Positions 1 through 10,359 of a DNA stretch of 64,000 nucleotides are shown piece by piece (within the stretch, counting starts at the first letter, position 1; the number at the start of each line of letters is the position of its first letter). A program made the translations under genes and the position numbers. The DNA is taken from the NCBI GenBank assembly GCA_902779765.1, contig CACZCQ010000013.1:31829-95828 (forward strand), read 5' to 3'. This DNA is from an uncultured Bacteroidia bacterium (lineage in GTDB: Bacteria; Bacteroidota; Bacteroidia; Bacteroidales; UBA932). A model generated the notes under the pieces. The model saw nothing but the letters and a program-made list of their open reading frames with translations, did not search any database and was not told the origin of the DNA.

Positions 1-279
1 TGCATGCCTGATGCCTCCACCAGTCTCACGGAGGAGATCCCTCTCCTCGGAAAAAGAAACCTTTATCCCGAAATCATCCTGGCCGTGGACATAATCGATG
101 ATCAAATCGGCGAAATGGTGGACATTGATGACGATGTCATCGAAGCCTGCAGCCTTCAGTTTGGTCACGACATGGTACAGAAGCGGCTTGCCGCCTACAG
201 GGACCAACGCCTTGGGCATGGTGTCGGTAATCGGCTTCAATCTGGTGCCCAGACCTGCCGCGAAAACCATGGCTTTCAT
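1..279 (-). CDS. MurU-like sugar nucleotidyltransferase (partial, 3' end off window)
   Basis: Only the first 93 codons are present; the gene runs leftward off the window. They show the sugar-1-phosphate nucleotidyltransferase signature: AAGLGTRL nucleotide loop (residues 7-14), PKALVPVGGKP (22-32) and ETGGGI (85-90). The family transfers NMP to a sugar-1-phosphate. The closest match by eye and by context is MurU (MurNAc-1-phosphate uridylyltransferase), which works with AmgK kinases, and the gene directly upstream is AmgK-like. The start ATG at 279 lies one base after the upstream TGA (281-283), so the two are surely co-transcribed. A mannose-1-phosphate guanylyltransferase-like role cannot be excluded from the fragment. 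Confidence 0.8.
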   Translation of the reverse strand, partial: MKAMVFAAGLGTRLKPITDTMPKALVPVGGKPLLYHVVTKLKAAGFDDIVINVHHFADLIIDYVHGQDDFGIKVSFSEERDLLRETGGGIRHA

Positions 280-280
280 A

Positions 281-1696
281 TCAGAGGATCTTTTCTATGT
301 CGAGTTCCCTGTGGGACAGGGTGATCTTGATATCGAATTTCTCGGAGAGGTGACGGGCAAGATGCTCCGCACAATAGACAGACCTGTGCTGCCCGCCCGT
401 GCAGCCGAAACACACTTGCAAATGGGTGAACTTCCTCTCCATGAAGCACTTGACATGGTTGTCCACCATCGAATACACGTTCTCCAGGAATTTGGTTATT
501 CCTCCGTCATCCTCCAGGAACTTGATCACCTCCGGATCCAATCCCGTGAACTGGCGGTAATGCTCATACTTGCCGGGGTTGTTGATAGCCCTGCAATCGA
601 ATACGAAACCTCCGCCATTGCCGGAATTGTCCACCGGAATGCCTTTCTTGTATGCGAAACTGAATATGCCCACCTCCAAGCGCTTGTCTTCCGCGATGTT
701 GTTGAACTGGGCCATCGTGGTAAGCTTCGTAAGGATCTCGTTGAGGTATGGATAATCGGAGAACGGCTTCTGCAGAAGGCGCCTCAGATTGCTAAGTGCG
801 TAAGGGACGCTGGCAAGGAAATGGGGCTTCTTCTCGAAATATCCCCTGAAGCCATAGGCTCCCAGGACCTGCAGGGTCCTGAACAACACGAAGAGCCTCA
901 ACCTTTCGTGGAAATGGGCCTCGTCGACTTTCACATAACCCTTCAGGGCAGTAAGATATGCCTGGACAAGTTCCTTGCGCAGCTTCTCCGGATAGCGGGC
1001 CCTGGCCTGCCAGACAAAGGAAGCCACATCGTAATAGATGGGGCCTTTCCGGCCGCCCTGGAAATCTATGAAATACGGATTCCCGTCCTTGACCATCACG
1101 TTCCTGGCCTGGAAGTCACGGTACATGAAAGTATCGCCCATATCCTGCATCAGGTCATCCTTGAGGCGTTCGAAATCTTCCTGAAGCCTGACCTCGTTGA
1201 ATTCAAGTCCCGTAGCCTTGAGGAAACAGTACTTGAAATAGTTGAGGTCGAACATCACCATCCTCTCGTTGAATGCGGGCTCAGGATAGCAGACCGACCA
1301 GTCCACGCCCACGGCACCCCTGAACTGGATCTTCGGAAGCATTTCCATGGCCTGGCAGAGCAACCTGCATTCGTATGAACTGTACTCCCCTGTCTCCCTG
1401 CCATGGGACACAAGCTTGTAGAGCTGATCATCCCCCAGGTCCTCCTGGATATACCGCATATTGTCGTCGGATACGGCCAGGACCCTTGGCACCCTGATGC
1501 CCTTTTCCAGGAAATGGCGGCTCAACTGGATGAATGCGATATTCTCATCCCTGTCAGTTCCGATAACCCCAATAATGGAAATATTTCCGCCCTTGAGGCG
1601 GAAATATCTCCTGTTGCTTCCGGAAGAGTTGAGCTCCTCCGCGTCAGTGACTGTCTGACCTGTATAACTTTCGAAAAGTTTCTTCAGATTGTCCAT
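281..1696 (-). CDS. AmgK-like sugar kinase fused to RapZ C-terminal domain
   Basis: 471 residues, two domains. Residues 1-about 320 are an aminoglycoside-phosphotransferase fold kinase: YRDFQARN catalytic loop (192-199) and IDFQGG metal motif (210-215) followed by GPIYYDVASF, the pattern of AmgK, the anomeric MurNAc/GlcNAc kinase of cell-wall recycling. Residues about 340-460 match the C-terminal domain of RapZ (GIFSFAYKKGIP, FDCRAINNP, GLDPEV, FGCTGGQHRS at 430-439), without the RapZ N-terminal kinase-like domain. In E. coli the RapZ C-terminal domain binds glucosamine-6-phosphate and the small RNA GlmZ. The gene is followed at one base by the MurU-like gene and preceded by NamZ and an AmpG-like permease. 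Inferred role: phosphorylating salvaged amino sugar, perhaps with sensing by the RapZ part. Confidence 0.88.
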   Translation of the reverse strand: MDNLKKLFESYTGQTVTDAEELNSSGSNRRYFRLKGGNISIIGVIGTDRDENIAFIQLSRHFLEKGIRVPRVLAVSDDNMRYIQEDLGDDQLYKLVSHGRETGEYSSYECRLLCQAMEMLPKIQFRGAVGVDWSVCYPEPAFNERMVMFDLNYFKYCFLKATGLEFNEVRLQEDFERLKDDLMQDMGDTFMYRDFQARNVMVKDGNPYFIDFQGGRKGPIYYDVASFVWQARARYPEKLRKELVQAYLTALKGYVKVDEAHFHERLRLFVLFRTLQVLGAYGFRGYFEKKPHFLASVPYALSNLRRLLQKPFSDYPYLNEILTKLTTMAQFNNIAEDKRLEVGIFSFAYKKGIPVDNSGNGGGFVFDCRAINNPGKYEHYRQFTGLDPEVIKFLEDDGGITKFLENVYSMVDNHVKCFMERKFTHLQVCFGCTGGQHRSVYCAEHLARHLSEKFDIKITLSHRELDIEKIL

Positions 1697-1700
1697 CTAA

Positions 1701-3272
1701 TCAATAGAGATTGCTGTACGTTACACCGTTGGAGTTGTAATTGTACTTCTGGGCGAGTTTGCCGTACATCTGTCCGAGGACCTCGAGATAGGGCTTGCCC
1801 TCCACGAGAGTGGTGCGGTATACGGTGTCGTCGACCTTGTAGAAGTCCATACCATCCAGGGTGATGATATCGTAATCATCGGGCAACTCCTCGACAAGGG
1901 CTCCGGCCGGAGGTACGATGACCTCGTACTGGCCCTTGGAGTTGACGATGTAGAATACGCCGTCCTGATAGTAGTAAGGCTGGTTCGCGTAGGCAAAGCT
2001 CTGCACGAGTCCGAGCCTGTCCGCAAGGGAGTAAGCGTCGTTGGCTCTGGTAGTATTCAGGGCGAAGGCGCTGTTCTGAGCGGCTATGGTGGCATTATTC
2101 TGGGCGATGATCCTGTTCTGCTCATCGATGATCCTGTTATTGGAGTCGATGGCCCTGAACACCCTGTATGTATTGCAGTAGTACGCGAAGCGCACGGTGG
2201 AAAATACAAGGTCGGAGATCGCCAGGTCGATGCATACTCCGAAAGGAGGTCTGCAGACTACCCAGAACCCATTGTAAGGCCTGTAGTAGATTCCGTCGTA
2301 GAAGCAGTAGTCAATTCCCCAGTAGGTGAGCCTCCTGTAACGAGGCGGCAGGTAGTTGACCCTGTATCCGTAGAAGTGAGGAGCATGTCCCCAGAAGTGA
2401 CCGGGATGGTTGTAAGGCAGGAAGTCGCGCTCCCTCGGAGGGATCCTGTGGACATTCCTGTCCTCGCCGATCCTCATGAAGTCATTGCGGGTCTCGTGCA
2501 TCACATCGTTTCCGGTGCGAGCCATGCTCTTGTCATAGGAAGCAAGTCCGTTCCTGGTGGCATTGCCGACACTGCGGGATTGCTCCCTTCTGGAATTGTC
2601 GGCAGTTCCGCGAGCAACGCTGCTCCTGGAAGAAGAACCGATCGGCTGGGCTACCCTGGCACCTGAACTACGGGAAGAAGTAGCGGAGCTACGTGCAGTA
2701 GTAGCGGAACTACGTGCAGTAGTAGCGGAACTACGTGCAGTAGTTGCAGAGCTGCGGGAAGATGAGCCGGGATTTACCTGAGGATCCCTCGCGGTGGCAG
2801 AAGAGCTTCTGGAGCTGGTCGAAGAGCTGCGCGCGGTTGTTGCGGAGCTGCGGGAGGCAGTCGAAGAACTGCGGGAGCCGGTCGAAGAGCGGGAGCCGTT
2901 GTCTACCTGCTGTCTGGTAACCGTAGCGGAACTGCGGGAAGCAGTCGAAGAGCTGCGGGAAGAGGAGCCGGGGTTGACCTGAGGGGCCCTGGAGGTGGTG
3001 GCGGAAGAACTTCTGGAACTGGAAGCAGCAGTGCTCCTGGAAACACTTCCGGAGGAACTCCTCCGGGAAGAACCTGAGCTTACCTGAGGCCTGGAGGCCG
3101 AGGCGGAGCTGCGGGTGCTTGAAGAACTACTGACCGAAGATCTATTCTGTGATGAGGTAGCGCCTCCGGAACGACCCGAAGAGCTTCTTGCCTGAGAGTA
3201 TGAATCTGCAGGGAATGCAACCATGGCTGCTGCCACTATCGATGCGATTGCAAACTTGAAGATGTTTTTCAT
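1701..3272 (-). CDS. Ser/Arg-repeat exported protein with DUF6515-like C-terminus
   Basis: 523 residues. A Sec signal peptide (about 1-27, ending near DSYSQA) is followed by about 200 residues of low-complexity Ser/Arg/Ala/Thr repeats (units like TARSSA and RSSS). A folded C-terminal half follows, rich in Tyr, Pro and Gly (YYQDGVFYIVNSKGQYEV, VVPPAGALVEELPDDYD), which resembles DUF6515. The function is unknown. A secreted or periplasmic surface protein is likely. It lies between NamZ (13-bp gap) and the AmgK-RapZ gene (4-bp gap), so it is probably part of the operon. The repeat region is encoded by near-perfect 21-bp units and may vary in length. Confidence 0.75.
   Translation of the reverse strand: MKNIFKFAIASIVAAAMVAFPADSYSQARSSSGRSGGATSSQNRSSVSSSSSTRSSASASRPQVSSGSSRRSSSGSVSRSTAASSSRSSSATTSRAPQVNPGSSSRSSSTASRSSATVTRQQVDNGSRSSTGSRSSSTASRSSATTARSSSTSSRSSSATARDPQVNPGSSSRSSATTARSSATTARSSATTARSSATSSRSSGARVAQPIGSSSRSSVARGTADNSRREQSRSVGNATRNGLASYDKSMARTGNDVMHETRNDFMRIGEDRNVHRIPPRERDFLPYNHPGHFWGHAPHFYGYRVNYLPPRYRRLTYWGIDYCFYDGIYYRPYNGFWVVCRPPFGVCIDLAISDLVFSTVRFAYYCNTYRVFRAIDSNNRIIDEQNRIIAQNNATIAAQNSAFALNTTRANDAYSLADRLGLVQSFAYANQPYYYQDGVFYIVNSKGQYEVIVPPAGALVEELPDDYDIITLDGMDFYKVDDTVYRTTLVEGKPYLEVLGQMYGKLAQKYNYNSNGVTYSNLY
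2681..2764. repeat. 21-bp tandem repeats inside the Ser/Arg-repeat gene
   Basis: Three consecutive near-identical 21-bp units (2681-2701, 2702-2722, 2723-2743; unit 1 differs by one base) and a degenerate fourth encode seven-residue Ser-Ser-Ala-Thr-Thr-Ala-Arg units on the minus strand. The period is a multiple of three, so copy-number change would keep the frame. Confidence 0.85.
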
Positions 3273-3285
3273 ATCGTAAGGAGTT

Positions 3286-4593
3286 TTAGTTGTTATCGTA
3301 CATCAGGTACTTTCTGGAGAGCTCCTTGAAACTTTCAACATCCTTGGACCAGTAGTCTGCGATGTCTTCGACTTTCAGTCGCTTCTCAAAAGTCGTTCTT
3401 ACATAATCCGTACCACAAACTTTATCAAACATCCCGTTACGCCCTCCAGATAGCTTGAACGGGTTTTTTGATGGATAAAGTTCATGGACGGCCTGCATCA
3501 CATAGAACTGGGTCAACGTACAGCAAGCTGCATCAAAATCCGTATAATGGTACTGGACTCCGTGCAGGAGGACACCCTGGGAAGAGCCCGAAAAAGGCTT
3601 GAAATGGATTGTCCGGAAGGCTATCCCGGGGAGGTTGTAGCTGTCGAGCCTTGCCTTGAGCTTGTCGGCATCGATCCACTCGGCGGCAAAGACTTCGAAC
3701 GGCAGGGTATAGCCTATGCCGATGTTCAGATAGCCCTGGAATTCTCCCGCTATACCGGCAGAAGGATAATCGATCGCAGACTGCGGGTACGGAATGTTCG
3801 GGGAAGGCAGCACCCACGGCAGACCTGTATCGGAATAGAGCATATTCCTGTGCCAGCCTTCCATTGGGATGACGGTCAGGTCGCACTTCAGAGGTTTCTC
3901 GTTGCCTTTCTCCCCGCAGTTCAGGCCCTCATCATTGATCAGCCAGGCCAGCTCCCCAACCGTAAGTCCGTAGATATAAGGTATTTTGAACTCACTTACG
4001 AAAGAATGGAATCCGTCCTCGACCAGGCACCCTTCGACCTTGTTTCCGCCAAGAGGGTTCGGCCTGTCCAGGACCATGACCTCTATCCCCTGCTCGGCGC
4101 AGGCGCGCATCACTAGTCCCAGGGTGCTGATGAAAGTGTACGAACGGCTGCCGACATCCTGGATGTCATAAACGACCACATCCAGGCCGCTGAGCATCTC
4201 GGGTGTGGGCTTACGGGTAGAGCCGTATACGGAATAGACCGGGAGTCCCGTCCCCGGATCCCTGCCGTCCTGTACACGGCCTCCGGCGTAGACGTCACCG
4301 CGGACTCCGTGCTCCGGGGCGAAGAGCTTACGCAAGTCCACCTGCCCGGCTTCGTTCAGGATATCGATTGTCGAACGAAGGTTGCGGTCGACTCCGCTGG
4401 GATTGGTAACCAGCCCAACCCTCTTTCCGACGAGTCCGTCGAAGCCGCGGCTTTCCAGCACCTCGATGCCGACCTTGACCACAGTGGTATCCTGAACGTT
4501 GCCTCTGGTATCCGATACGTTCCCGGAAGCATGCGCACAATAGGTCAGCAGAAGGGCCGCTGCCAAAAAGAAACAATGGTTCTTCATAATCAT
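3286..4593 (-). CDS. namZ: NamZ exo-beta-N-acetylmuramidase (DUF1343)
   Basis: 435 residues with an N-terminal signal (hydrophobic run to about 22; a possible but atypical lipobox LTYC). The mature part carries the DUF1343 landmarks GLVTNPSG, KLFAPEHGVRG, VVYDIQDVGSRSYTFIS and VLDRPNPLGG. NamZ enzymes remove single MurNAc residues from the non-reducing ends of peptidoglycan fragments, acting outside the cytoplasm. It sits 15 bp downstream of an AmpG-like permease, in the same order of ideas as the Tannerella MurNAc scavenging genes. A second ATG two codons in (4587) is equally possible. Confidence 0.92.
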   Translation of the reverse strand: MIMKNHCFFLAAALLLTYCAHASGNVSDTRGNVQDTTVVKVGIEVLESRGFDGLVGKRVGLVTNPSGVDRNLRSTIDILNEAGQVDLRKLFAPEHGVRGDVYAGGRVQDGRDPGTGLPVYSVYGSTRKPTPEMLSGLDVVVYDIQDVGSRSYTFISTLGLVMRACAEQGIEVMVLDRPNPLGGNKVEGCLVEDGFHSFVSEFKIPYIYGLTVGELAWLINDEGLNCGEKGNEKPLKCDLTVIPMEGWHRNMLYSDTGLPWVLPSPNIPYPQSAIDYPSAGIAGEFQGYLNIGIGYTLPFEVFAAEWIDADKLKARLDSYNLPGIAFRTIHFKPFSGSSQGVLLHGVQYHYTDFDAACCTLTQFYVMQAVHELYPSKNPFKLSGGRNGMFDKVCGTDYVRTTFEKRLKVEDIADYWSKDVESFKELSRKYLMYDNN

Positions 4594-4608: not shown

Positions 4609-5880
4609 TTACTGTTCCTCGATCCGGGGAAGGATCTTGGAACGGGCGATGACGGCCGCCAGGAATGTCCCCAGGCAGGACACCATCACCAACGTAAAGA
4701 ATCCCACATAGCCGAGCCACTGCTGAAGATAACCGGCAACCAGCGCGGGGAGTTTCATGGACAGCCACATGAAGGCGGTACATATGGCATAATGGGACGT
4801 CTTCAGGGGTCCGTCCACGAACTGCATCATGAAGAGGGTATAAGCCGTGAATCCGAAGCCGTATCCGAACTGGTCAATGACGATCAATGAACCGATCGGC
4901 CAGACCCCGGAAGGATGGAAAAGGGCCATAAGCAGATAGACCACGCATGGCAGGGCAAGCGACAGGGCCATCGGCCACATGGATTTACGCAGGCCATACC
5001 TGGATGCGAATATTCCTCCGAGTATTCCGCCCAGCAGCAGGGCCACCACTCCGAAAGTCCCGTAGACCAGGCCATACATCTCGGTTCCGGCTCCAAGGCC
5101 CCCGACTTCCGCTCCGTCCTTGAAGAAAGGATAGAGAAGATTGAGGGAGAGAGCTTCAGGCAGGCGGAAAAGGAGCAGGAACGCTATAGCCCACCATACT
5201 CCTTCCTTAACGAAGAATGAGCGGAAGGATTCGGCGAATTCCGACCAGATACGGGCGGAGGACCCGACATCACGCCTGTCCTTGTCTTCTTCCGGCCTGG
5301 GCAGTATGAACAGATGGTAGACGGCGATGCAGGCCAGAAGGACAGCGGAAATCAGGAGGACGAACGCCCAGGCACGCGGAACGTCGCCGAGGCGTTTCTG
5401 CAATACTCCTCCCAACATCACCAGCAGGCCCTGGCCCAGGACCAGACCACCCCTGTAGAAAGTATTGCGGATGCCGACGAAAGCGGACTGATGCTGGCGG
5501 TCAAGGGCAAGCATGTAATAACCGTCGGCCGAGATGTCGTGGGTAGCGGAGGCGAATGCCACAATGACGAAAAGAGCCAGCAGAACCGACATCGAACAGA
5601 ACGGGAGACAGAAGGCGATCACTGCCAGTGCGGCAAGCATCGTGAACTGCGTAAGCAGGATCCACCATCTCTTGCTCCTGAATATGTCCATGAACGGACT
5701 CCATAGAGGTTTGATCAGCCACGGCAGGCTGATCAGGGTCGTCAAAGGGCCGAGGGTTCCGTTGTCCACGCCCATATCCTTGAACACGGCGAGGGCGATG
5801 GTGTTGACTATGGCGTATGGAAGGCCTTCCACGAGATAAAGCGTGGGGACCCAGAGCCATGGAGATCCTTTTGTTTTCAT
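4609..5880 (-). CDS. AmpG/MurT-like MFS permease
   Basis: 423 residues, about 12 hydrophobic segments. The N-terminus (WVPTLYLVEGLPYAIVNTIA) and the loop ATHDISADGYYMLAL match the AmpG/PAT branch of the major facilitator superfamily, which imports anhydromuropeptides or, in Tannerella, MurNAc (MurT). The gene overlaps the upstream DUF4922-SpoIID gene by 4 bp (ATGA) and precedes namZ by 15 bp, so translational coupling is likely. Its substrate is inferred from neighbours: the MurNAc or GlcNAc-MurNAc products released by NamZ. Confidence 0.9.
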   Translation of the reverse strand: MKTKGSPWLWVPTLYLVEGLPYAIVNTIALAVFKDMGVDNGTLGPLTTLISLPWLIKPLWSPFMDIFRSKRWWILLTQFTMLAALAVIAFCLPFCSMSVLLALFVIVAFASATHDISADGYYMLALDRQHQSAFVGIRNTFYRGGLVLGQGLLVMLGGVLQKRLGDVPRAWAFVLLISAVLLACIAVYHLFILPRPEEDKDRRDVGSSARIWSEFAESFRSFFVKEGVWWAIAFLLLFRLPEALSLNLLYPFFKDGAEVGGLGAGTEMYGLVYGTFGVVALLLGGILGGIFASRYGLRKSMWPMALSLALPCVVYLLMALFHPSGVWPIGSLIVIDQFGYGFGFTAYTLFMMQFVDGPLKTSHYAICTAFMWLSMKLPALVAGYLQQWLGYVGFFTLVMVSCLGTFLAAVIARSKILPRIEEQ

Positions 5881-8081
5881 ATTCTTGTCAATGAAGCTCC
5901 CGGATAATAATGATACAATATTTCGTCATACCTGTACCCCTTGGCACCCATCACGGCTGCTCCGATCTGGCACAGGCCGACACCGTGTCCCCATCCCGAG
6001 CCATCCAGTACGAGACGGTCACCGTCCCAGTTGATGCTGAACGCCGAACTCTTCAGATGGGATTCAGAAAGCCACTTCCTGATTATCAGTTCCTTGCCAA
6101 TAACCATTGAGGACTTGCTCCCGACAATGCGAAGCTTCTTCAGCCTTCCGGAAGGACCGCGCTCGACAGGAACCAGGTCCTTGATCTCGCCGAATTCCAC
6201 ACCCGAACGCCTGTTCACAAGTTCCGACAGTTCCTTTCTGGAATATTCAGTCCTCCACCTGAAGAAATCCTTCGTTTCAAGGTCATAGTCATTGAGAACC
6301 TGCGAAAGGATGGCCTTATCATCCGTGTCGCAGAAAGGTTTCGCCCCTTCCTTCCAGTCCGGAGTGTCGGGAAGGGACCTCAGGTATGGCGGATCCTGAT
6401 CCTCCCAACACGTGCTGAAAAGTTCCATACGACCCCCGCAGCATTTCGAGAATCGGGCGTCGCAGATACTCCCGTCATATGTCAGCACCATCCCCCAGGT
6501 CTGGTCGACAGCCTTGCGGGCAGTCTCGCCAACGACCATGGACAAGCCTTGATAGCGCTGGCAATGGTCATCGGCACAGACATCGAAGCGGGTGTGGTCC
6601 TCGTGGTCGAACCATTTGATGAACTCGTGTCCCCCGGGGACTGCATCAGCCTGAGTTGCCGGAGCGGCGGAATCATCCCTTTCGGAAGAAGATTCGCGAC
6701 GGGCGATCTGGGCCATCACCCACGAACGAGAGATCACCGCATGCGCTTTCAGGAACTCGAGCCCGGCAGAGGCCTTCATCTCCGATGATATTACGCTGAG
6801 GAGATAATCTTCGATGCCCACGATGTTCACCGCCAGTACCTTCCCTTGATCCACAATGAACTTCAAGGTCCCTGCGAACTTCTGTGTGACCTTACGCTCC
6901 CAATGGAAGTCGACTCCTATGGTCACCCCGTAGAGGATGAAAGAAGGCTCCGAAAACATTGTCGACTCGGTCTGGGCATCGAAAAACAACTCGTCGTACA
7001 GCGTTCCGTTGTATGAGATCCTTCCGTCCTGAAAGGAAACCTTCTGCGGACCGGCCCCGTCCGAAATGATCTCGAATACTATTTCGTCGGCGGACATTAT
7101 CCCCACCTCAAGTTTCTTCTGGTCCCTGGTGAGACGCCATATTATGCCATGCTCATCTTCTTCAGGAATAGTCACTTCATCGACTATCCTTTCCAGCAGG
7201 GCGGAATCCATCTTGTCGAAATCCTCCTTCCTCGGGGCCACGAACACTCCCCCCATATCGGCACAGCCGGGACTCATGGCAATCCGGTCAGGCCCTTCCA
7301 GGAAATAATGATGCGGACGATGGGTCTCCCTGAAAATGACTATGGTGCGGTATTCTCCGGCTGAATGCCAGCTGATCACGTTGATCCTCGGCTCGGAATC
7401 ACCATCCTTGACCGGCGAGCAGTCCAGGAGCCTGTAAAAAAGCTTTGCCTGGGACTTGGCTGTTTCGGCACAGATGACGAACACTCCCCTGGCATATTCC
7501 TTCAGATGATAGAGCCTTGCCTCCCTGATACCGGAAAGATATTCGAGGGAACCGCTTCCTCCTGTTCCAAGCAGGGACTCCACACGGTTCTCAAGCGGCA
7601 TGAGCTTCCGTGGGCATGCCTGGAAGTGGATGTGGTCGGGAGCGGATGCGCCTGACTTCGGACCGTTGTAGAAACAGGTAAAATCCTCATTCTCACGGAC
7701 AAAATCCAGCATATCCTGATACCGCTTCCAGATTGCCTGCGGCAGATGGCGGAAACTGGAAATCACCAGATGGCGGGGGAAAATCGGAAAAGGATTTAGC
7801 GTTATCCGGTACATCTTCCCCTTCCGTCCTTCGAATTCGATGTTATATTGCTCCGAAGGCCTGTTTTCCGGGCAGAGGAAGCAGGGCCTGGCGGCGATGG
7901 AAGCCGGATCGGTGGCTGCATCGGAAGAGATGGTCCTGCAGGGATTGTGCTGCAGTACGACTTCCAGTCCTCCAACTGTCAGAGCCTTTACGGACACCTT
8001 CTTCAGGTCCCTGTAGTTCTCAGCGGCCAAAGGCCAGACTGAAAGCTGGTCATTGATGAATTTGTCGATCTCCCCGCCCAT
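5877..8081 (-). CDS. DUF4922 (HIT-like phosphorylase) - SpoIID/LytB fusion
   Basis: 734 residues from the ATG at 8081, which overlaps the upstream stop as TGATG; a GTG one codon earlier is less likely. The N-terminal about 330 residues are DUF4922, a HIT-superfamily domain related to GDP-galactose and Ap4A phosphorylases: paired Cys (PCFLCPENRP), NPFPIFPRHLVI and the ASAPDHIHFQ active-site His motif. The C-terminal about 330 residues are a SpoIID/LytB domain (IEDYLLSVISSEM with the conserved Glu, then GWGHGVGLCQIGA near the end), a family that includes glycan-strand cleaving lytic transglycosylases. No signal peptide is seen, odd for a wall-cutting domain. Context points to amino-sugar nucleotide or muropeptide metabolism. 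Confidence 0.88.
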   Translation of the reverse strand: MGGEIDKFINDQLSVWPLAAENYRDLKKVSVKALTVGGLEVVLQHNPCRTISSDAATDPASIAARPCFLCPENRPSEQYNIEFEGRKGKMYRITLNPFPIFPRHLVISSFRHLPQAIWKRYQDMLDFVRENEDFTCFYNGPKSGASAPDHIHFQACPRKLMPLENRVESLLGTGGSGSLEYLSGIREARLYHLKEYARGVFVICAETAKSQAKLFYRLLDCSPVKDGDSEPRINVISWHSAGEYRTIVIFRETHRPHHYFLEGPDRIAMSPGCADMGGVFVAPRKEDFDKMDSALLERIVDEVTIPEEDEHGIIWRLTRDQKKLEVGIMSADEIVFEIISDGAGPQKVSFQDGRISYNGTLYDELFFDAQTESTMFSEPSFILYGVTIGVDFHWERKVTQKFAGTLKFIVDQGKVLAVNIVGIEDYLLSVISSEMKASAGLEFLKAHAVISRSWVMAQIARRESSSERDDSAAPATQADAVPGGHEFIKWFDHEDHTRFDVCADDHCQRYQGLSMVVGETARKAVDQTWGMVLTYDGSICDARFSKCCGGRMELFSTCWEDQDPPYLRSLPDTPDWKEGAKPFCDTDDKAILSQVLNDYDLETKDFFRWRTEYSRKELSELVNRRSGVEFGEIKDLVPVERGPSGRLKKLRIVGSKSSMVIGKELIIRKWLSESHLKSSAFSINWDGDRLVLDGSGWGHGVGLCQIGAAVMGAKGYRYDEILYHYYPGASLTRI

Positions 8082-8671
8082 CACAACAACGCAAGCAAAG
8101 TATCCCTGAGCGATTCGAATTCCTGCTCGAAATTCGGCGTGAATACACCTTTGCTGATGGATCCTGAGATCTCATCCATAGTCCAGTAGCGGCCTTCCGT
8201 GACTTCGTCGTTAGATGGCGACAGATCGAAATTGCCGACAGCCGCAAAGACATTGACAAGTTCCTTCTCCCTGGAAGACTCCCAAAGGTAGGTTTTTATG
8301 TAGATCGGATTGAAACCGCTGAAACCCAGTTCCTCGAAGGCTTCCCTGAACAGGGCGACCTCCAAAAGCTCGCCGTAATCCACATGTCCTCCGACAGCCG
8401 TATCCCACATCCCCGGAAACTGCCGTTTCTTCATCGACCTTTTCTGGATGAACAGTTCTCCTTTCCGGTTGATGATATGGAGATGTACCACCGGATGCAA
8501 AAGCTTGATACCTCCATGGACATCATAGCGTGAAGCCTGGCCGATCACAAGCCCGTTCTCCTCTACAACAGGGACCATCTCTCCCCTGATGCGGGTCGTG
8601 ATCCCGGGATTATCGGCAGTGGGTAACGGAAGGACAGGTGCCGGATCGACCGGATAAATAAGTTCGAACAT
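8081..8671 (-). CDS. Nudix hydrolase, isopentenyl-diphosphate-isomerase-like
   Basis: 196 residues with a perfect Nudix box, GHVDYGE followed seven residues later by REAFEELGF, that binds the metal ion for hydrolysis of a nucleoside diphosphate-X bond. The preceding HPVVHLHIINRKGELFIQKRS stretch is typical of the IDI-like Nudix subgroup of unknown substrate. I start it at ATG 8671, three bases after the upstream stop; the open frame reaches a TTG at 8677 inside that stop overlap. It ends overlapping the start of the DUF4922-SpoIID gene, so the two are coupled. Confidence 0.88.
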   Translation of the reverse strand: MFELIYPVDPAPVLPLPTADNPGITTRIRGEMVPVVEENGLVIGQASRYDVHGGIKLLHPVVHLHIINRKGELFIQKRSMKKRQFPGMWDTAVGGHVDYGELLEVALFREAFEELGFSGFNPIYIKTYLWESSREKELVNVFAAVGNFDLSPSNDEVTEGRYWTMDEISGSISKGVFTPNFEQEFESLRDTLLALL

Positions 8672-8673
8672 CG

Positions 8674-10359
8674 TCAAGCAATGGCAAAAAGGACCAACAA
8701 CTGGGCAACCAGCACCCTCATGAACATCGATAGAGGATAAACCGTTGCATAATTCACGGAAGGATAATCAGTTCCATAAGCCCCTTGGGTAAAGGCAAGC
8801 ACGGCCGGGTCGGTTGTGCCGCCGGATATCAGGCCGCAGATCTGATAGAAATTCAACTTGCAGGCGTACCTGGCCACCAGGCCGATTACGAGTACCGGAA
8901 TGAAGGTAATGAGGGCGCCATAGAGTATCCACATGTAACCGCCCCCGATAATGGAACTGACGAAACCCTGGCCGGCGCCAAGTCCCACTGCAGCCATGAA
9001 GAAGGATATACCTATCTCACGGAGCATCATGTTGGCACTCTTGGTGGTGTAGATGGTTATCTTCCAGCTGGGGCCGAAATAACCGAGCAGTATGGCTATG
9101 ATCAGGGGGCCTCCGGCAAGTCCGAGTTTTATCGGCTCAGGAATGCCGGGGAACCTCAGAGGAATGCTTCCAAGGAGTACTCCGAGCGCGATGCCGAAGA
9201 ACAAGGGGATAAGGTTCGGCTTGTCAAGGTTGGTAGTCTTGTTCCCTACCAGGTCCGACACGGCATCGAGTCCCTGCTCCGGGCCGACTATCCTCAGGCT
9301 GTCACCCATCTGCAGGATAAGGCCGGGCCTGGCGACCAGGTCGATTCCAGCCCTGGTTACCCTGGTCACGCTGACTCCGAACTTCGTCCTGATATTCAGA
9401 TCCTTGAGTTTGGTTCCGGTCAGGGACGGCCTGGTGACGACAACGCGCCTGGTGGCAGTCTTGAAATCAATCTTCTGCCAGTCCTTGAGGTGCATGGGGA
9501 CCTCCTTCCCGAAGAGGATGCGGATATGGTCGACATCGCTTTGGGTAGTCACTATCAAGAGTTTGTCTCCCTTATGAAGGACGGTGTCGGGACCGGGGAT
9601 GGATATGACCCCGTCATGAAGTATCCTGGACACCACGAAATCCCCTGCAATGCCATCGGTCACATGGGAAAGCTTCTGACCGAAGACAGCCGGATTCTCC
9701 ACCTCGCAGTGCATCCTCCTGGCATTGCCTTCCACCTCGTCTTCCTTTTCCAGTTCCGTTCTCTCCTGTTCCAGATCCACCTTGAACAGAGATCTGAACA
9801 ATATCATCAGTCCGATTACCAGAAGGACACCCAGAGGATAGGCCACGGCATATGCGGAAGCCAATCCTGAGGTTGCATGCGTCACTTCCGAGGAAAGGAT
9901 TCCGTCGGCCCGCATCGCATCACCAAGAGTCTGCTGGGCGGCACCCAGTCCGGGAGTATTCGTAACGGCTCCTGACATTACTCCGACCATCGTCTTCAGG
10001 TCCTCACCGGTCACGAAATGGATGCACAGAGTCACCACCACGGCCAGAAGCACCAGGCAAAGCGCCAGGAGGTTGAGCTTGAGTCCACCTTTCTTGAAGG
10101 AATGGAAGAAACCGGGACCGACCTGGAGTCCTATGGAAAAGATGAAAAGGATCAGGCCGAAATCCTTCATGAAGCTCATGACGGTGGAGTCGACCCTGAC
10201 TCCGAAATGGCTCAGTACTATGGCTACGAAAAGGATCCATGTGGAACCGATCGAAACCCCTTTGACCTTGAAACGTCCGAGCCATAGCCCGAAGCCGATA
10301 ACTACGGCAAAAACCAGGATGGAATGGGCGATCCCAGGGCCCAAGAACAATTCTTTCAT
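8674..10359 (-). CDS. YidE/AspT-family putative transporter with two TrkA-C domains
   Basis: 561 residues in the AspT/YidE/YbjL (AAE) layout: about five N-terminal membrane segments, a central cytosolic stretch (about 200-375) with two TrkA-C (RCK-C) modules (GPDTVLHKGDKLLIV; RPGLILQMGDSLRIVG), then about five or six more membrane segments. GAVTNTPGLGAAQQTL and SGGTTDPAVLAF are the duplicated signature loops. Family members exchange amino or organic acids; the substrate here is unknown. It overlaps the upstream HU-like gene by 4 bp (ATGA). Confidence 0.9.
   Translation of the reverse strand: MKELFLGPGIAHSILVFAVVIGFGLWLGRFKVKGVSIGSTWILFVAIVLSHFGVRVDSTVMSFMKDFGLILFIFSIGLQVGPGFFHSFKKGGLKLNLLALCLVLLAVVVTLCIHFVTGEDLKTMVGVMSGAVTNTPGLGAAQQTLGDAMRADGILSSEVTHATSGLASAYAVAYPLGVLLVIGLMILFRSLFKVDLEQERTELEKEDEVEGNARRMHCEVENPAVFGQKLSHVTDGIAGDFVVSRILHDGVISIPGPDTVLHKGDKLLIVTTQSDVDHIRILFGKEVPMHLKDWQKIDFKTATRRVVVTRPSLTGTKLKDLNIRTKFGVSVTRVTRAGIDLVARPGLILQMGDSLRIVGPEQGLDAVSDLVGNKTTNLDKPNLIPLFFGIALGVLLGSIPLRFPGIPEPIKLGLAGGPLIIAILLGYFGPSWKITIYTTKSANMMLREIGISFFMAAVGLGAGQGFVSSIIGGGYMWILYGALITFIPVLVIGLVARYACKLNFYQICGLISGGTTDPAVLAFTQGAYGTDYPSVNYATVYPLSMFMRVLVAQLLVLFAIA

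Follow-up and report, generated by a model that had tools for sequence, protein, structure and literature searches.

RapZ is known mainly from Escherichia coli, where its C-terminal domain (CTD) binds small RNAs as well as glucosamine-6-phosphate (GlcN6P), the latter with a KD of 10 nM according to the sections of PMC7073468 drawn on here, which also describe the putative GlcN6P site as conserved across diverse bacteria and the RNA-binding part as enterobacterial. The corresponding sections of PMC9841335 report that the substitutions H190A, G249W, R253A, K170A and C247A/S abolish the control of GlmZ by the E. coli protein. A separate line of work concerns AmgK, which in the Pseudomonas and Caulobacter type is a kinase of the APH fold encoded upstream of a murU-type gene in a salvage context. 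Tannerella forsythia is described in the excerpted text of PMC7670621 as forming UDP-MurNAc from N-acetylmuramic acid (MurNAc) through AmgK and MurU, likely replacing MurA/MurB, and that of a 2026 preprint (PMC13041923) reports that MurNAc probes label E. coli only with amgK and murU expressed, the labelled strain RFM795 expressing the T. forsythia pair. Here we describe a gene in which both lines meet, a kinase-RapZ_C fusion at positions 281..1696 (minus strand) of a 64,000-nucleotide stretch (hereafter the window) of contig CACZCQ010000013.1 from an uncultured Bacteroidia bacterium. Its domain make-up, gene order, the co-inheritance of its two parts and their conserved and changed residues are directly observed; that the whole is best explained as an AmgK-type salvage kinase bearing an RNA-independent, amino-sugar-phosphate regulatory CTD is, in our estimate, an evenly poised proposition.

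The N-terminal part of the 471-aa product (residues 1-312; 761..1696, minus strand) is an AmgK-like APH-fold kinase in which D194, N199 and D211, presumably the catalytic Asp, the Asn and the second Asp of APH-type kinases, are invariant in all 45 aligned kinases (42 of them contained in alignment A1), and which is matched by both NCBIfam AmgK models (NF045759, 63.8 bits; NF045698, 32.8 bits). The C-terminal part (residues 333-471 including flanks; 284..700, minus strand) carries a RapZ CTD that is complete according to the profile match, with the domain proper at residues 341-465 and the P-loop at G431-C-T-G-G-Q-H-R-S439. A Foldseek search with this domain retrieved RapZ chains only at E <0.001, and the fold is the same as that of RapZ. 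This addition distinguishes the window kinase from AmgK of the Pseudomonas and Caulobacter type, whose 324-position model leaves no room for it. From RapZ/YvcJ, conversely, the fusion differs by lacking the N-terminal P-loop domain: PF03668 has no match in the fusion protein, whereas an Azospirillum RapZ does match it in the same kind of scan, and the RapZ model NF003828 reaches 105.5 bits against a cut-off of 244, over the CTD portion only. A preliminary description of this locus, made from the letters alone, had proposed an AmgK-type core and a complete RapZ CTD in one 471-aa protein, and the domain profiles agree; the match of residues 340-460 to the RapZ profile is strong, so the lack of similarity which it had named as a refutation did not occur. 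Its claim that there is no RapZ N-domain to act through likewise stands, in that none is present in the fusion and the fusion is the sole PF22740 (RapZ_C) match in its own genome, although no search was made for a stand-alone N-domain. The neighbour to which it pointed, MurU, is also in place: a MurU-like nucleotidyltransferase gene starts one base downstream of the fusion gene, its 5' part occupying 1..279 (minus strand) before it runs past the window; the complete gene (L002:9542-10279) encodes 245 aa, and MurU is the best NCBIfam match of its product (NF045761, 124.2 bits). Very likely, the fused kinase acts as an anomeric amino-sugar 1-kinase of the AmgK type and works in a salvage pathway.

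The survey of the fusion beside MurU in Bacteroidota that had been suggested in the same description was run, and shows the fusion to be common, not rare. Among 395 genomes drawn from the phylum and taken as Bacteroidota, RapZ_C was found in 49, and the kinase (at ≥259 bits) in 50, namely these 49 and G009; the CTD thus accompanies the kinase in 49 of 50 genomes. Kinase and CTD are fused in 37 of the 49 and encoded by separate genes in 12, the CTD-bearing open frames being 471-524 aa and 134-169 aa long, respectively, with none of canonical RapZ size among the 49. Kinase, CTD and murU genes adjoin in that order in eight of the 12 split genomes, the kinase and CTD genes are unlinked in four (G331, G271, G306 and G180), and in G009, which has no CTD, the kinase and murU genes overlap. 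It follows that the CTD accompanies the kinase without having to share a polypeptide with it and can work in trans, and that kinase and MurU can exist without it. In 39 of the 49 loci a same-strand MurU-like gene follows the CTD within 500 bases. The own-locus copies L001 and L002 entered the analysis as a single row, as did the duplicate pair L022/L052. The best 80 of at least 588 confirmed named loci are similar: 79 are fused and the remaining one is truncated where its contig stops, murU lies within -200 to 300 bases in 76, and the taxa are Bacteroidota throughout, bar one 'uncultured bacterium'. A more distant kinase (about 110-155 bits) without a CTD occurs in 84 further genomes, all of family f19, and in the three of these loci that were examined (L169, L170 and L171) it stands beside a MurU-like gene.

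On a tree of 53 kinase domains the label 'fused' has to change four times, and good branch support makes three or more of these changes unavoidable: family f6 has its split genes nested among fused ones (support 97/96), and split G031 groups with fused G124 (98/97). Because split genes nest inside fused ones, we infer that the fusion is old and has been split more than once, the CTD gene being retained in each of the 12 split genomes observed. A different arrangement is found in two f48 genomes (L039:5627-7441 and L043:5573-7293), where a stand-alone CTD gene adjoins a conserved, membrane-protein-like protein of ~425 aa instead of kinase or murU.

The activity of the kinase can be approached through T. 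forsythia. Among the 123 genomes of family f3, G668 is the sole MurA-less one at ≥90% completeness and ≤5% contamination, and it contains an exact match to a 26-base primer listed for T. forsythia ATCC 43037 in PMC5790795, a primer with one mismatch in G669 and absent from G670 and G684. On the strength of this match G668 is taken as T. forsythia. Its one match to P0001 is an orthologous 477-aa fusion (61% identity) that overlaps murU by 4 bases and scores equally low on the AmgK model (66.5 against 550). Since this fusion stands next to murU, the AmgK of the published T. forsythia studies is very probably a kinase-CTD fusion; the sections of PMC7670621 and PMC13041923 drawn on here make no mention of a RapZ domain, and the word RapZ is absent from PMC13041923. 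Given the reported function of T. forsythia AmgK and MurU in E. coli (PMC13041923, in the portion cited), the window kinase is, by analogy, probably a MurNAc 1-kinase. The two organisms differ in that T. forsythia has no MurA match, whereas MurA is present in the window genome at 417.8 bits; a MurA-less state like that of T. forsythia was accordingly rejected for the present organism. Four genomes of genus g181 in family f2 (G452, G470, G502 and G558) combine the fusion with no MurA match, three of them being ≥93% complete, and could be further MurNAc auxotrophs; MurA-positive members of the genus carry the fusion as well, and the draft state of the assemblies weakens the point drawn from MurA absence. 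In G670, a one-contig genome from the T. forsythia genus, MurA is present but nothing matches the fusion.

Comparison with E. coli RapZ reveals a pocket that is kept on one side and altered on the other. C247, T248, G249, H252 and R253 (E. coli numbering) are kept in all 49 CTDs, as is R184, and position 170 is K or R in 47. Conversely, H190 is replaced by Gly in 49 of 49 CTDs, R238 by an aromatic residue (F, W or Y) in 49 of 49 and K251 by Gln in 48, so that the full set of E. coli residues needed for GlmZ binding (H190, K170, C247 and R253, with the basic contacts R238 and K251) is not present. A five-residue insertion before VFDxR, which sits in the Gly-rich stretch 357-363, is absent from E. 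coli RapZ and from eight outgroup RapZ proteins. In the latter, position 190 is His in four, Tyr in three and Phe in one, and never Gly, while every one of the nine RapZ sequences, E. coli included, has a basic residue at position 238. Read together with the cited portions of PMC9841335 and PMC7073468, this residue pattern favours a metabolite pocket without RNA. The preliminary description had expected an output different from the enterobacterial one, and the changes at positions 190 and 238 point the same way; that the domain senses GlcN6P is uncertain. Because the pocket is kept on the P-loop side and changed at H190 and beside the insertion, the ligand may differ from GlcN6P, and the missing side chain at position 190 together with the extra glycines suggests a roomier pocket, perhaps suited to a lactyl-bearing or N-acetylated sugar phosphate.

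We propose the following mechanism. A NamZ-type enzyme would release MurNAc and an AmpG-like carrier would import it; the kinase would convert MurNAc to MurNAc-1-P, and perhaps N-acetylglucosamine (GlcNAc) to GlcNAc-1-P, and the adjacent MurU-like uridylyltransferase would turn MurNAc-1-P into UDP-MurNAc. The CTD would bind a phosphorylated amino sugar, this ligand class being suggested by its conserved CTGGxHR pocket, and in its ligand-bound state might adjust the kinase, in one direction or the other and without RNA, in such a way that salvage follows the supply of amino-sugar phosphates. Whether the CTD indeed regulates the kinase is a question to which we give equal chances either way.

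Several observations weigh against this proposal. The AmgK scores are far from the model cut-offs (63.8 against 550 for NF045759 and 32.8 against 500 for NF045698), the MurU-like neighbour is also under its own (124.2 against 250 for NF045761), and the T. forsythia AmgK construct is not described in the part of the PMC13041923 text drawn on here. The pTM of the structure model, 0.70, does not fix the arrangement of the domains. No MurU-like gene lies near the CTD in ten of the 49 loci; about 1.5 kb of flank was counted for three of these, and longer flanks (L172-L174) still contained none. Separate CTD genes in 12 of the 49 genomes, with no linkage to the kinase gene in four, fit a separate enzyme equally well as a regulator. 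The argument against RNA is narrowed by the outgroup, in which Gln also occurs at position 251 in three of eight RapZ proteins and positions 194 and 211 vary too, so that only positions 190 and 238 and the insertion are distinctive. Finally, position 190 and the insertion make the pocket unlike that of E. coli, which renders GlcN6P uncertain as the ligand.

The CTD might instead be an enzyme, its P-loop catalysing a cysteine-dependent reaction on a sugar 6-phosphate, for example the dephosphorylation of MurNAc-6-P, and thereby feeding MurNAc to the kinase; we consider this unlikely, albeit deserving of attention. All 49 CTDs contain CxxGxxR[ST], a loop that is the motif of cysteine-dependent phosphatases with a PTP-like (protein tyrosine phosphatase) P-loop. 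In the excerpted text of PMC9841335, E. coli RapZ loses its activity when C247 is changed to Ala or Ser, a possible catalytic role is suggested for the C247 thiol, and the density in a CTD crystal with GlcN6P is called 'likely a chemically transformed product'; the C247 mutants were, however, scored by GlmZ binding and cleavage, not by catalysis. Persistence of the CTD as its own gene in the 12 split genomes, even where unlinked, would suit an enzyme. In Pseudomonas the MurNAc-6-P phosphatase MupP acts before AmgK (PMC13041923, in the portion cited), and a MurQ-like gene in the window genome (302.2 bits, barely above the cut-off of 302) implies that MurNAc-6-P may occur there. Yet AnmK, a source of MurNAc-6-P, is not enriched with the CTD (present in 31 of 49 CTD-positive genomes and in 240 of the 346 without a CTD; Fisher p 0.41), and the AnmK profile finds no match in the window genome. 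Although MurQ is above its cut-off in 19 of the 49 CTD genomes and at ≥298 bits in 21, 13 lack both AnmK and MurQ at ≥298 bits. The profile of AnmK and MurQ genes thus gives no support to a replacement of MupP by the CTD, nor does it rule one out, MupP itself not having been searched for, and the phosphatase SHP2 was retrieved by Foldseek only at E 2.7 and 5.5. Regulation is a more likely role of the CTD than catalysis. A broader version, in which the RapZ CTD is by origin a small cysteine-dependent hexosamine-phosphate enzyme, still so in the AmgK-MurU salvage of Bacteroidota (for instance making MurNAc from MurNAc-6-P), and in which enterobacterial RNA binding is a later reuse of its phosphate pocket, appears to us more doubtful still.

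That the CTD is mainly a ligand-free dimerisation or scaffolding module holding kinase and MurU together is improbable. The kinase-CTD-MurU order held in eight of the 12 split genomes would be expected of such a module, as would the dimers formed by the RapZ CTD (PMC9841335, in the sections cited), but a scaffold without ligand would not need the pocket residues C, T, G, H and R kept in 49 of 49 domains, kinase-murU pairs without CTD exist, and the two genes are unlinked in four genomes. Retention of enterobacterial-type RNA binding, which would link salvage to post-transcriptional control, agrees with the shared fold, with K or R at position 170 in 47 of 49 CTDs and with the invariant R184, but is highly improbable given the missing RapZ N-domain, the Gly at position 190 in all CTDs (H190A kills E. 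coli function in the cited text of PMC9841335), the changes at 238 and, with the outgroup caveat, 251, and an Rfam scan that covered the window plus four loci and returned tRNAs only and no GlmY/GlmZ; its rejection as the main reading is based on positions 190, 238 and 251 and not on experiment.

The surroundings of the fusion agree with a salvage role and form, judging by gene spacing alone, a putative peptidoglycan-sugar salvage operon that may be expressed as a single transcript. Directly upstream, and on the same (minus) strand, lie genes for a Ser-rich protein with DUF6515 (1701..3272), which is present in the relatives L053-L055, a NamZ-type exo-beta-N-acetylmuramidase (3286..4593; PF07075, PF20732) and an AmpG-like MFS transporter (4609..5880; TIGR00901 at 178.4 bits, below the cut-off of 350). 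They are followed in the same putative operon by a DUF4922 and SpoIID/LytB fusion (5877..8084, minus strand) and a NUDIX protein (8081..8677, minus strand), and farther upstream by a YidE-type transporter and an HU-like protein, same-strand genes that are close or overlapping. The 735-aa product of 5877-8084 is peculiar in its own right, as it pairs DUF4922, with a weak likeness to Ap4A phosphorylase, with SpoIID/LytB, an odd combination, within the putative salvage operon. Much of the window gene order is retained in the closest named relatives (L053-L055), but in the fetched stretches of the best 80 of at least 588 named loci NamZ occurs in six and AmpG in five, which indicates that the wider gene group is lineage-specific whereas kinase-CTD-murU is general.

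RefSeq calls two of the fusions, from Parabacteroides distasonis (WP_005858754.1, L153:1481-2911) and Bacteroides finegoldii (WP_237923178.1, L154:1493-2923), 'RNase adapter RapZ', a name that is misleading because the N-terminal half is a kinase, as checked for the P. distasonis protein. The same annotation is borne by a protein of the Streptomyces plasmid NZ_CP130726.1 (L163:2501-3382, plus strand), in which a RapZ CTD is also joined to a different enzyme domain; there, however, the CTD comes first, the partner is NUDIX, and the five-residue insertion is absent. Similar CTD matches are found on other actinobacterial plasmids. Among the titles and abstracts listed by a literature search there was no description of a RapZ CTD-AmgK architecture, and no paper in the literature searched contains both RapZ and AmgK. 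Kinase family and domain were each known before; what appears undescribed in that literature is their joining, how widely it occurs and the altered pocket.

Recognition of the fusion corrects a RefSeq name that hides the kinase. A kinase-linked CTD with an intact phosphate pocket and changed RNA-contact residues offers a clean system for an RNA-free role of the domain, available in Phocaeicola vulgatus and other gut bacteria that can be grown in culture. The same system could reveal how Bacteroidota adjust the salvage of cell-wall sugars, on which T. forsythia depends.
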